This document shows positions 1 to 22,575 of a stretch of 64,000 nucleotides of DNA, piece after piece. The DNA is from Pegea sp. RAD2-039 (taxonomy: Eukaryota; Chordata; Thaliacea; Salpida; Salpidae). Numbering within the stretch: position 1 is the first letter of the stretch; every line of letters starts with the position of its first letter. A program made the position numbers and the translations under genes. Below the pieces are notes generated by a model that was given only the letters and a program-made list of their open reading frames with translations, ran no database searches and was not told where the DNA came from. Location of the stretch: contig JAQGEQ010000316.1 in NCBI GenBank assembly GCA_034620365.1, positions 620,001 to 684,000 on the forward strand, written 5' to 3'.

Positions 1-2902
1 CAAATGGCGGTGGCATAGGATGATGAGAAAGTTACCTTGATGGCGGCGAGATGTTGTCTCGACTTCGTGGAATTGGTGAATTTGATCTACTTCTACTTGT
101 AGATGATTTTGATGAGATGCTTGATGATCGTCGTTGTCGCTGTTCTAAAGCACGTTTCGCGCGTGTTTTAGCGCGAAAAAATTCGAACAATCCATTTGTC
201 TCCCAACCATCGCTACAAAATATCACTGATGACGTCACTGACATCACTGATGACGTCACTAACGCGTTACGAGGGTAACCGTGTGATGGAGGAAGATAAA
301 AAGCTTCAACGGCAGCGAGAAGTCGATCATTGGGAGGAAGAGGAGGAGGAAACCGGATGAGATCAGGATCAAGCTCTTTGTATTCCATTTCAGAGAGCTG
401 TATGAAAGAAGAGCTGAAATCTGGTCAACAAGTGGATCTCTAGGTCGTTTACAGGCACTAGGGGCGCCATCAGACCAGCCGGAAGATCGTAGTACGGCGC
501 TTTTGGTTTCAAAGCTTCATCTGATGATGTCACAGGCGCAATTGGCGCTGTGGGAGGTGATTTTTGAACGTTTTTGCTACCACCAGATGGCGCTGTTGGC
601 GCGAAATCAGGCTGCTGTGGCTCCGCATAGCTGCTGATGACGTCATTTGAATGATAGGATCATTTAGATGAAAATGTTACTTACTCTTGTCGCGGAGGAA
701 AGTTGTCATGAGGACGATCGATTCGCGATGATGACGTCATCCAAGGTTCATTTAGAGGAGGTTGAAACTTTGCAGGGCCATCACCTAGCAAAGACGATGA
801 CGTCATCATCTTGTGACGTCATCAAACGCCTCACCTTGAAAGTTGTTGTCAGCAGATTCATTGAAATGATCTCTCATCGGCAGAGGCTGCAATGTTTTGG
901 AGTCAATCAACTGAATTTACGAGTTGCGCGCTTTTACCTTATTTGGTAATCGACGATTGTCGAAGAATTGTCGCTTCTCGTTGATTTGAAGCTGCAGATG
1001 ATCACAATACTCCTGATGCTGATGTTTATACTTTTCAAATTTGCTCTGAAACTCGTGTTTGATGTTTCGAATGGTTTCAGCGTGAAAAGAGCTCCGTTCC
1101 ATCTGACGAAGAAGATATTGTTGTTAGCGACCAGTAGTAACCAACAACAACCAATTAGTAACCAACAACAACCAATTAGTAACCAACAGCAACCAATTAG
1201 TAACCAACAGCAACCATCAATCACCTGATATTCATTCAAAGTATTTTCTGGTCTTCGGATTCCATTTACAATTTTGATTTGGAAATATTTTTGTTCTTCC
1301 CACAAATCCAACAGCTTCGACAGCTTATCACGATCTAGCCCTTCTGAATCTACAACACATATGACGTCATCAAACGCGTTCATGATGTCATCACTCACTA
1401 ATGAAGGTGATGCAATAGATGGGAGTGATCACGTGTTCAATTGCCATCATCAAATGATCAATATTCCGTCGCGCCGCGTGATGAATGACGTCATGAAGCA
1501 AGTACACGAGATGTAGATTCATATTAACGTCTTGACGCTGTTTGCGCGCCTGTTAAGTCATCAGATTAGTCTCAAATTGATGTAGTAATGACGTCACCTT
1601 TCGCGAAGCAGTCACAACGCGATTGAGAATTAATTTGCATATTATCGAGGAATGAAAAGGCGAAATGGAGTTGTTTAGAATCCACTGTTTGCAACTAGCA
1701 ATTGAATCTTTAGTGCAAGAGTCAATCACTGGTTGCAGAAGATGATCCAACTGATTTAAATTGATTCCAGCTTCACCAGCATGCTGCAATCCATCTTTTT
1801 CATCTAATTCATAGATGATTTCATCGACACGAGCTTCTTCTTGCGCTGTTAGAGACTTTCAAAGATGTGATGACGTCATCTGTTGGTTTTAATCCTAATC
1901 ACCTCGTATTGTTGTTGCAAGTTCATTTCACTTTCTCGAATTTGTTGCTTCATAAACTCTTCGTCGTCTAATTGGTCGTTTGACATCACCGAATGTGACG
2001 TCATCATAAAAGGGCGCGGGGGGATGTTGACGGAGGGATTTGGAGGTATTGGTGGCTGGTTGCTAGGCAGAAAGTTTGGAGGTGGTTGTTGTTGCCATGG
2101 AGGTATCACAGGAAGATTGTTCTGTGATTAAAAAACAATTTTGCTGAAACATTAGTGAAAATTTACATAAACATTTTTCAAACCAACCAGCTAATTACCC
2201 ATTAAACTAACCAATAAACCATCTAAACGACCAGTAACTAACCATAGCAGGAGCTTGATTGAATGGAGTGAAATTCATTTGGTTCCACTGGTTGCTATGA
2301 CTACTTACATCTGGAAGATTTGAGTTTTGAGGATTCAACACTAGAATTAAAATAGTTTCAACTCCACATCATTAATAAATATTTTAATTACTTTGTTGTT
2401 CACTTGCAAGTTTATATTTGTAATATGCAAAATATTTTCCACCAAATAAAAAAGAAAACTTTGGATTATTTTTCTGTTTATTTTTTGTCATATTTTCAAA
2501 TTCTAAACCATTCCTAGCAACAAAATTTGCCAACTTATCTATGATATTCTTTACTTCAGACTCTAGAAAAATTGAAAAAAATTTATTTAAATTGTAAAAC
2601 TGTTTATTATCACAAAGAAATTTGCATTTTGTATATTTTAATAAAATATTTCTTTAATGTAAAAAAGTAAAGTAATAAAATAATAATAATTAATTAATTC
2701 AATAATAAAATTGAACTATTTTTATTCATAAAACAATTTTGATAATAGTTAAAATTATAATAACAAAATATTAACTTATTTATAATTATAAAAGCAATTT
2801 ATTAAACTAAATTACATTCACTATTTTTGTTTTGATATTTTTCATTATTTAATTAATAATTATAAAAACAATCTCACCTTCGGGCACATTTGGTATAACC
2901 AT
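1..2902 (-). CDS. CHERP: CHERP homologue, 3' part outside window
   Basis: Calcium homeostasis endoplasmic reticulum protein, a nuclear SR-related factor associated with U2 snRNP and splicing. Translation from the ATG at 2902 begins MVIPNVPE. After an intron comes a SURP domain (about 2390-2560; IDKLANFVARNG, NPKFSFLFGG, YYKYKLASEQQ). A Pro/Gln linker follows, then a CID domain (about 1240-1780; LLQPVIDSCTKD, HDVIHHA, TPIYC, LLDLWEEQKYF). The C-terminal block (about 36-370) reads LDPDLIRFPPPLPP, RLLAAVEAFYLPPSH, GWETNGLFEFFRAK and an Arg/Ser run. The order and spacing match animal CHERP. The G-patch end lies beyond position 1. At least six introns of about 48-52 nt carry TGACGTCA (for example 213-263, copies at 638, 798, 814, 1362, 1589, 1871). 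The intron at 1103-1224 is a tandem repeat. Some linker exon borders are uncertain. Confidence 0.9.
1103..1224 (-). repeat. CHERP intron made of a 21-bp tandem repeat
   Basis: The intron between the CID end (LNEYQ) and the following helix (MERSSFHAE) contains about four copies of a 21-bp unit at roughly 1135-1220. On the sense strand the unit contains TTACTAATTGGTTG. The splice sites are GTGATT and GTCAG. Each unit holds a branch-point-like TTACTAAT. Confidence 0.8.
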
Positions 2903-20645: not shown

Positions 20646-22575
20646 TCAAAAATCGTTCAAAGATTCGTCGAGTTTCTGGAACAACAAATCAACTTTTCAG
20701 TTTTGTTAAATCTTCAACAAAATAAATTTTTTAAATTGAAAATTGTAATCAAAAGTTTTTACAATATCACTTCAAACAATTTCTATTTTTTACGGAAACT
20801 ATTTATCCATATGTAGCTCAACTGACCTCAACCAAATAGTCTGCATCTTTTTTTGAAAAGGTCATGGGGGGCTTGAATTTGAGGACATTGTTGAGAGGTC
20901 CTTCAATACTGATGATGATTTTATGCTGCTTGAGTCTGGAAAGAAAGATTAGAACGAGAATCAAAAGATGAAGATCAGAAGATGAAGATCAGATTTGAAC
21001 CTGCTCTGAATAATTTCTGTCTCTTCTGTCGCAGCCTCTTTACTTTTCCGATCTTTCACAAATTCAATTCCAATAAAAAGTCCCAAACCTCTAAAACATC
21101 TGTTAGTGACAACATCAAGTCATGACGTCATCACCTGACGTCACCAATCAACAAATGCTTCTTTTTTAACTTTAACAACTCGTCTTTTGTGTACTTCCCG
21201 ACCACTGCAGCATTCTGCATCAACTCATCTTTCACGATGACGTCAAGCACCGCGCTACCAATCGCGCAAGACACTGGATTTCCAGCAAAAGTGTTGAAGT
21301 AGCTCCCGCGACGTTTTTTGAAGTTGCTCGCAATTTCTGCGGTTGTTATGACAGCAGCAATTGGATGCCCGTTACCAATCGGTTTTCCGATTGTTACAAT
21401 GTCTGGAATAGCTCCCTAAAAGTCACAAAAAAGTTTCTAGAAAATCTTTCAAAAAGTTGACAAAAAATCCATAAAAGTTTTAAGCTTACTTGTACTTGAA
21501 ACGCCCAGAAATGTGAGCCAACGCGCCCAAAGCCAACTTGCACCTCATCCGCGATACAAACTCCTCCCGCTTCTCGTGCATGTCTACGACGCGATCAATC
21601 ACATAAAGCCGCGATGCGATGACCTCACTCACTCGAAAGCGCGCGTCATATAACCCTTTGGGGGGATGATCTGACCTCCACAGCTAATCATCGATTCCAT
21701 GATGAAAGCAGCCAACTACAAACCATATGACGTCATAAAAACTTCGATTTAACGATGACGTCACCTTCTTCTTCTCGCCACGGATCTGATTAGTGATCTT
21801 TGCGACTTCTTCCGCGTAACAAACTCCTAAATCAACGTCAGCATCGTACTTACTTCGATACGAATCAGGTGCTGGTGCCTAGCAACCTAAGCTGATGACG
21901 TAATTAGCGTAAAAAGCCACTGACTAAGTGCACGAAGTCTGCTTTCAAGTTTTTGTTCACTTTCCACTTGTGCTCGCTTATCTCGATACATGACGTCACA
22001 GTGCCGTGGTAAGCGCTATGGAGCGCGATGACTTCACTTCCACCAGTATGAGTCTTTGCTAGTTGCAAAGCCATGTCGTTTGCTTCTGAGCTGATGACGT
22101 AGTTAGTATCGAGAAGTGATGACGTCATCAGTACCCGGAGTTGACGAGGAAGCAAGTATCGAGCGGAGCTGGGAATAGTGACGTCAACCGCTCGACGTAT
22201 AGCGCAAGTTGATCGTGCAAAAAACGGGAATTTGTATAAAGCTGCTGCATTTGATTGGCTGCTGCTTTAGTGACATCATTGTTACAATGACCAACTATAA
22301 ATGAGATGATGACATGGTTGCTATGGTAATGAGGCAACTACCATGAGCAACGTTGTTGATGCAATCGAGATATTTATTTCCATTTTCATCGAATAAATAA
22401 GTTCCCTCTCCTCTTATGATGTTCAAAGGATCATTTTCGAAAAACAAACCAACTGAAGGTCTAAAAATTACAAAATATACATTTACCTGACTTCTATAAA
22501 GTTATCAACTTACGCTAAATGCTTTCTTCTAAGCTTTAAGGTTTGCTCTTTTGATAAACTTTTATCTTTATTCAT
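20646..22575 (-). CDS. PLP-dependent phospho-lyase, ETNPPL/PHYKPL family
   Basis: Class III aminotransferase-fold enzyme. The vertebrate paralogues cleave phosphoethanolamine (ETNPPL) or 5-phosphohydroxylysine (PHYKPL). It starts [20 protein letters not shown] at 22575, then [118 protein letters not shown] and SHFWAFQ. The PLP-lysine segment is [13 protein letters not shown], followed by [34 protein letters not shown] and [13 protein letters not shown] last short exon (about 20646-20675) ends [10 protein letters not shown]. Which substrate applies cannot be told from motifs alone. Three introns carry exact TGACGTCA, others near variants, and one carries TGATCTTCATCT repeats. Confidence 0.9.

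Follow-up and report, generated by a model that had tools for sequence, protein, structure and literature searches.

Why does one short palindrome, TGACGTCA, recur letter for letter in the introns of five neighbouring genes of a salp? The question arises from a 64,000-nucleotide stretch of the Pegea sp. RAD2-039 assembly (contig JAQGEQ010000316.1, positions 620,001 to 684,000, here called the window), whose first 22.2 kb hold genes for CHERP, STPG4, a G protein-coupled receptor (GPCR), NAT10 and a phospho-lyase. The original prediction for this locus had offered three explanations: an intron-creating element (introner), a splicing code for very short introns, or a bZIP or chromatin mark within gene bodies throughout the genome. 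By our genome-wide counts the third fits best, with binding and function still putative. We favour, at a probability of about 0.5, intragenic arrays of putative ATF/CREB/JUN sites that would act at the DNA level.

The octamer and its flanks

The window contains 63 exact copies of TGACGTCA. Dinucleotide shuffling gave a mean of 0.46 copies and a maximum of 2 among 100 shuffles, in line with the earlier expectation of less than one copy by chance. As had also been estimated, 53 copies lie before position 22,200; the remaining 41.8 kb hold 10. For the genome-wide counts, which the original prediction had called for, we used the assembly of 105.7 Mb (387 contigs) and the letter-reversed word ACTGCAGT as control. 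Exact copies numbered 27,792 versus 969 for the reversed word, a 29-fold excess. The wider form RTGACGTCAY was found 23,214 times versus 228 for its reversed form, and the 14-bp palindrome TGATGACGTCATCA 1,972 times versus 0. Places with at most one mismatch numbered 64,917 versus 28,668. One-mismatch words thus came to about 37,100 (37,125) versus about 27,700 (27,699), approximately 1.3 times the control or a third above background; these totals were used as output, and the accompanying list of places omits parts of contig C1. In the motif-rich loci we found 152 exact and 67 one-mismatch places (reversed controls 0 and 12). When all 256 palindromic octamers were ranked in 238 kb, composed of 19 loci not picked for the motif and the window itself, TGACGTCA led with 96 copies versus 1.35 expected, followed by a runner-up with 5 versus 0.43.

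The letters next to the octamer follow a rule. A purine before and a pyrimidine after were present at 23,214 of the 27,792 exact copies (83.5%), versus 228 of 969 for the reversed word (23.5%). The rule applied to intronic copies (purine before in 49 of 54, pyrimidine after in 52 of 54) as well as to exonic ones (32 and 31 of 34). The original prediction had described the core as often extended to 14 bp; the preference in the flanks is real, but only 4 of the 63 window copies show the full TGATGACGTCATCA. RTGACGTCAY is the consensus of ATF/CREB/JUN-class bZIP binding. Exactness of the octamer, its palindromy and the RTGACGTCAY rule together form the signature of ATF/CREB/JUN-type bZIP binding to DNA. 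As expected of a cAMP response element (CRE), the core is exact with purine and pyrimidine flanks, one-mismatch words stay near background, and candidate cognate proteins are encoded: the genome gave 12 bZIP_1 matches, and by the reading of their basic regions the bZIP exons appear to be of CREB, JUN, FOS, CREB3, ATF6 and C/EBP types.

Introns and codons of motif-rich genes

Gene models of the window came from a gene finder with fixed parameters, since a retrained version ran into intergenic DNA, and were then corrected by hand. Among the 33 introns listed for the five genes, 22 carry the word, with 33 copies in all and at least two copies in 9 introns. Together with copy 8801, placed by hand near the acceptor of a longer GPCR intron, this bears out the earlier estimates of about 35 intronic copies and of several introns with two. 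Outside the list are at least three introns that the script models place and that lack the motif (121 nt in CHERP, 213 nt in NAT10, 53 nt in the phospho-lyase), those towards the 5' end of NAT10 and the longer GPCR intron that holds 8801. Many motif-bearing introns have the predicted size of 44-60 nt, but their lengths span 44-209 nt. Of the 19 copies left before 22.2 kb, 11 lie in coding exons and 8 in intergenic or untranslated sequence. The motif-bearing introns are:

213 to 259, minus strand: CHERP intron, 47 nt, copies 230 and 251
634 to 684, minus strand: CHERP intron, 51 nt, copy 638
785 to 834, minus strand: CHERP intron, 50 nt, copies 798 and 814
1350 to 1398, minus strand: CHERP intron, copy 1362
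1550 to 1597, minus strand: CHERP intron, 48 nt, copy 1589; the word touches the donor GT
1846 to 1902, minus strand: CHERP intron, copy 1871; acceptor of the script model 10 nt off
6419 to 6474, plus strand: STPG4 intron, 56 nt, copy 6453; boundaries uncertain
6547 to 6595, plus strand: STPG4 intron, 49 nt, copies 6554 and 6585
6871 to 6920, plus strand: STPG4 intron, 50 nt, copy 6879 (14-bp form)
6973 to 7018, plus strand: STPG4 intron, 46 nt, copy 6982
7124 to 7170, plus strand: STPG4 intron, 47 nt, copy 7132
8355 to 8411, minus strand: GPCR intron, 57 nt, copies 8367 and 8395
11732 to 11940, minus strand: NAT10 intron, 209 nt, copies 11746, 11771, 11887 and 11906
12019 to 12071, minus strand: NAT10 intron, 53 nt, copies 12039 and 12060
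13094 to 13163, minus strand: NAT10 intron, 70 nt, copies 13110 and 13130
13281 to 13331, minus strand: NAT10 intron, 51 nt, copy 13323; placed by homology, exon in the script model
13711 to 13768, minus strand: NAT10 intron, 58 nt, copy 13728
13924 to 13977, minus strand: NAT10 intron, 54 nt, copies 13937 (14-bp form) and 13962
14281 to 14329, minus strand: NAT10 intron, 49 nt, copy 14318
21091 to 21134, minus strand: phospho-lyase intron, 44 nt, copy 21123
21716 to 21764, minus strand: phospho-lyase intron, 49 nt, copies 21728 and 21756
22091 to 22134, minus strand: phospho-lyase intron, 44 nt, copy 22120 (14-bp form); exon in the script model

For the first STPG4 intron (6419-6474), an alternative reading of 30 nt would put copy 6453 in an exon. 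The predicted gene names held for NAT10 and the phospho-lyase, a class III aminotransferase, both supported by Pfam and the former by PDB too. The CID match of CHERP fell just below the Pfam cut-off (23.3 versus 23.9 bits), and this name is based also on what the human CHERP looks like. Pfam assigned no family to the pieces of STPG4 and the GPCR submitted to it; their names come from the original prediction and from our reading.

Beyond the window, we compared nine motif-rich models (CHERP, two pieces of GPCR, NAT10, phospho-lyase, two pieces of a tankyrase, an IBtk-like and a cyclase-like gene) with six other models. The IBtk-like and cyclase-like genes were named by reading; Pfam supported BTB, RCC1, ankyrin, SAM and PARP domains. 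In the rich models 31 of 57 introns carry the word, and 26 of 38 among introns of at most 70 nt; since these models were chosen for their richness and the two sets were sorted by motif density, neither set gives a rate for the genome. Density was 10.6 per kb in introns and 2.7 per kb in exons. The six other models carry it in 2 of 24 introns, at 1.1 per kb in introns and 0.6 per kb in exons. Loci taken without regard to the motif (19 loci, 174 kb, 33 copies) yielded 7 recognised genes with 21 introns, 2 of them with the word; the gene finder misses genes in these loci, so intergenic density is unreadable from them.

The word is also written into codons. Hand-placed exonic copies before 22.2 kb are 732, 1486, 1996, 6694, 12231, 13476, 14195, 21136, 21238, 21991 and 22179, five of which are given here, without strand, with the peptide they spell:

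1486 to 1493: exonic copy in CHERP, codons for D-V-I
12231 to 12238: exonic copy in NAT10, codons for M-T-S-S
13476 to 13483: exonic copy in NAT10, codons for V-T-S
14195 to 14202: exonic copy in NAT10, codons for V-T-S
21238 to 21245: exonic copy in the phospho-lyase, codons for D-V-I

The nine rich models contain 32 exonic copies versus a synonymous-shuffle mean of 2.9 (maximum of 300 shuffles 9); the script models count 230, 251, 13323 and 22120 as exonic where hand placement makes them intronic, so that 32 is nearer 28. These copies occupy the two TGA-free frames (18 and 14) and never the third. Where a peptide permits the word (L/M/V-T-S or x-D-V-x), it is spelled at 32 of 45 positions, versus 1.5 expected from codon usage outside motifs; in the six other models at 3 of 6, versus 0.27. 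Candidate peptides themselves number 11.4 per 1000 codons in the rich models and 3.4 in the other six. Copies crowd the BTB exon of the IBtk-like gene (L006:6124-6705), and an ATG8-family exon (L065) has one. Since the word also fills coding exons of motif-rich genes, it is not an intron element; it is a feature of the DNA, and proteins are bent to accommodate it.

Copies gather in particular genes. Among 14 ten-kb pieces not chosen for the motif, 12 had 0-1 copy, one had 6 and one 13, versus 19 to 36 in three pieces chosen for it. In seven genes, where the ATG was placed by reading and stands in for the transcription start, density rose from 2.4 per kb (24 copies) over the 1.5 kb that follow the ATG to 6.2 per kb (70 copies) between 1.5 and 5.5 kb. 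The 1.5 kb upstream of CHERP, NAT10 and the phospho-lyase held no copy, and those of STPG4 and GPCR two each; tankyrase and IBtk were cut by locus ends. Thus, in these seven genes we saw neither the promoter-proximal position of vertebrate CREs nor the start-proximal concentration of intron-mediated enhancement. Among 54 spacings of 9 to 60 bp there was no clear 10.5-bp signal of helical phasing, and 8 of the 54 equal 20 bp, at least partly through tandem duplication.

Some observations on individual genes may be added. An intronless DMC1-like gene (L021:4278-5300) and a three-intron TBCD-like gene (L010:1356-4925), both named by reading, have no copy of the word at all; genes with few introns may also have few copies. 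NAT10 introns 12593-12668 and 12359-12455 are minisatellites of GATCTTCATC-like units. In a genome-wide search for a NAT10 paralogue with 612 query matches, the non-self ones among those listed fall on these two minisatellite introns. Tankyrase introns of 198-249 nt (L005) consist of tandem arrays of TAGCAACCAC-like units, which we take to resemble the RFX X-box, or of GATGTTGATCTTCA units. In the motif-poor part of the window (26911-27270), reading of the frame points to a reverse transcriptase fragment.

Weighing the explanations

In the explanation we favour, TGACGTCA with its wider form RTGACGTCAY/TGATGACGTCATCA would be a high-affinity candidate site for ATF/CREB/JUN-class bZIP dimers, present in this tunicate in tens of thousands of exact copies that are enriched in the transcribed regions of certain genes. 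The word would act on double-stranded DNA as an intragenic cis element. In the simplest version, bZIP dimers and co-activators would be held along the gene body, where they would maintain open chromatin and favour transcription. That most copies lie in short introns would reflect the weak constraint on these, the weakest in any transcribed sequence; codons would spell the word as well where the protein permits (V-T-S, D-V-x). Binding by ATF/CREB/JUN proteins, like any effect on chromatin or transcription, is our inference.

Several observations weigh against such sites. Copies are sparse near start codons, unlike classic CREs. The wider flank is asymmetric in exons, where TGA precedes 6 and TCA follows 18 of the 34 copies (in introns 28 and 19 of 54), perhaps through amino-acid constraints. 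Rich and other models realise a similar fraction of their possible codon sites (Fisher p 0.36). Amino acids are altered by copies even within folded domains, which is costly for a regulatory site. Finally, in a tandem family on contig C50, with 21 copies aligned at a mean identity of 86%, 40 of 84 site-copies were exact and the four motif sites ranked at percentiles 0.48-0.74 among 8-bp stretches, i.e. without extra conservation. Strong constraint on each site, hinted at by a few of these repeats, was not borne out by the 21 members together. The family itself (G000:C50:75924-325607) gave 43 DNA matches, two of which are short, with identities of 84-100%, and has the word at changing sites.

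The age of the copies can be estimated from their exactness. The ratio of one-mismatch to exact excess, approximately 0.35, translates into about 4% change per base if copies decayed neutrally from one burst; by this estimate, the copies are either recent or maintained.

The main rival, though an unlikely one, is an iterated palindrome resembling HIP1 or DNA uptake sequences (DUS), which would be spread and kept exact by a biased DNA process and not by benefit to each gene. Such a process might be mismatch repair, gene conversion acting on bound sites or some other drive, and the word would settle where tolerated, in introns first and then in permissive codons. Such a process would account for the extreme exactness of the word and for copies in introns, exons and intergenic DNA; as in HIP-like words, the exact palindrome exceeds expectation by far in both coding and non-coding DNA. 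It also agrees with codons and amino acids bent to spell the word, motif-poor models included, and with the ordinary conservation of sites in the C50 family. However, the flanks follow the rule of a bZIP site and not of an arbitrary word, copies gather in particular genes and thin out near starts, and we know of no such word-spreading DNA process in animals. It is rather doubtful, too, that a bZIP palindrome spreads through gene bodies by DNA-level drive, as a chordate counterpart of HIP1 or uptake sequences that fills introns and rewrites codons and even amino acids. Gene conversion favouring the bound allele would be an example of such a drive, and a transcription-factor site would thereby shape the proteome.

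An RNA-level signal for splicing or decay of very short introns, for example a stem formed by the palindrome or an in-frame TGA in retained introns, appears improbable. The word is indeed densest in introns and present in most of those of at most 70 nt in rich models. However, exonic copies use two frames and avoid the TGA-giving one, the purine/pyrimidine rule is equal on both sides, the distance to the donor varies from 1 to 47 nt, and 22 of the 24 introns in the six other models do without the word. A splicing enhancer would be expected in introns only, at a fixed place and on one strand; the copies are neither confined to introns nor fixed in place, and a palindrome has no strand. The splicing code of the original prediction is thus disfavoured by exonic copies, varying splice-site distances and motif-free introns.

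A by-product of base composition, CpG islands, a methylation mosaic or runs of TGA/TCA trinucleotides is very improbable. Motif density rises with GC and with the observed/expected ratio (o/e) of CpG in 1-kb bins, and TCATCA/TGATGA is mildly raised even in motif-poor loci. Against this stand the rarity of reversed words of the same composition (969, 228 and 0) and, with motifs masked, an exon GC of 0.415 in rich versus 0.416 in other models, an intron CpG o/e of 0.78 versus 0.79 and an exon CpG o/e of 1.06 versus 0.90. An isochore or methylation reading, good in 1-kb bins, was gone once masked exons and introns were compared separately.

For the introner, sampled DNA was matched against itself at 80 bp or more: 15 of 185 copies in the sample, and none of the 63 in the window, lay within shared sequence. 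Since introns are shorter than 80 nt, we added a pairwise comparison of motif introns of at most 80 nt. In local matches, 434 of the 435 pairs scored at most 26; the one near-identical pair is a local tankyrase duplication. The largest motif-kept shuffle (18) was exceeded by 27 pairs, as shared flanks and splice signals would give. An introner or other intron-creating mobile element, suggested by the number of introns that are alike in size and have the word close to their donor and by the tankyrase pair, is hardly credible, because most sampled copies lie outside shared repeats, exons carry copies too, and motif introns share little beyond the word.

The genome yielded further observations. 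The C5-methylase family gave seven matches in open frames of 832-873 aa (G000:C57, C249, C32, C52), which mobile elements perhaps carry; two of the seven face opposite ways on C57, some 5 kb from each other. A search for COX1 gave no match. An exon of glycosyl hydrolase family 6 was found in L066 (G000:C14:73700-75100; 35 bits, cut-off 27), a family known among animals, to our knowledge, only from tunicates. The 16-base spliced leader (SL) of Ciona intestinalis, as given in PMC7986045, has 149 + 123 = 272 exact copies genome-wide (reversed control 0). A tandem leader array with a period of about 199 bp (G000:C4:1135044-1142217) probably represents SL RNA genes. By themselves, the leader and the hydrolase exon make it very probable that the host is a tunicate, one with a leader of Ciona type.

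Comparison with known systems

Short DNA-level words in genes include the M26/CRE recombination hotspot of S. pombe, which uses the same octamer family as TGACGTCA, the periodic A/T clusters of C. elegans and bacterial uptake sequences. Among the papers listed by a literature search, largely outside subscription papers, no title or abstract reports such intragenic word arrays, and we are aware of no analysis of Ciona introns for the word. If regulatory, the arrays would allow intragenic control that is independent of splicing to be tested in a chordate; if driven, a short DNA word would be spreading through an animal genome and altering its proteins. In both cases, what introns contain and which codons are used in this lineage could not be read as neutral.

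The word resembles the CRE in its octamer and in the RTGACGTCAY flank preference of the bZIP consensus. The canonical CRE is TGACGTCA; vertebrate CREs cluster no more than 150 bp away from the start site, and no start-site bias is described for Ciona, fly or worm (PMC1796609). In contrast to vertebrate CREs, the copies described here lie in introns and codons, number up to tens per gene and are sparse near starts. A site repeated dozens of times within single genes, and in codons, is contrary to the usual view of CREs.

HIP1, the highly iterated palindrome of cyanobacteria, accompanies methyltransferases specific to it, according to PMC4390886. It shares with the salp word the form of one exact octamer palindrome at very high copy number, but as described there is bacterial, not tied to introns and partnered by its specific methyltransferase. 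In Arabidopsis, TTNGATYTG is a dispersed motif of intron-mediated enhancement that works from an exon too, independently of splicing and additively with copy number, as PMC6760150 states. Like TTNGATYTG, the salp word is short, dispersed in introns and present in exon sequence; unlike it, the word is palindromic, and where the Arabidopsis motif is described in that text as limited to the first ~1 kb, density here rises after 1.5 kb.

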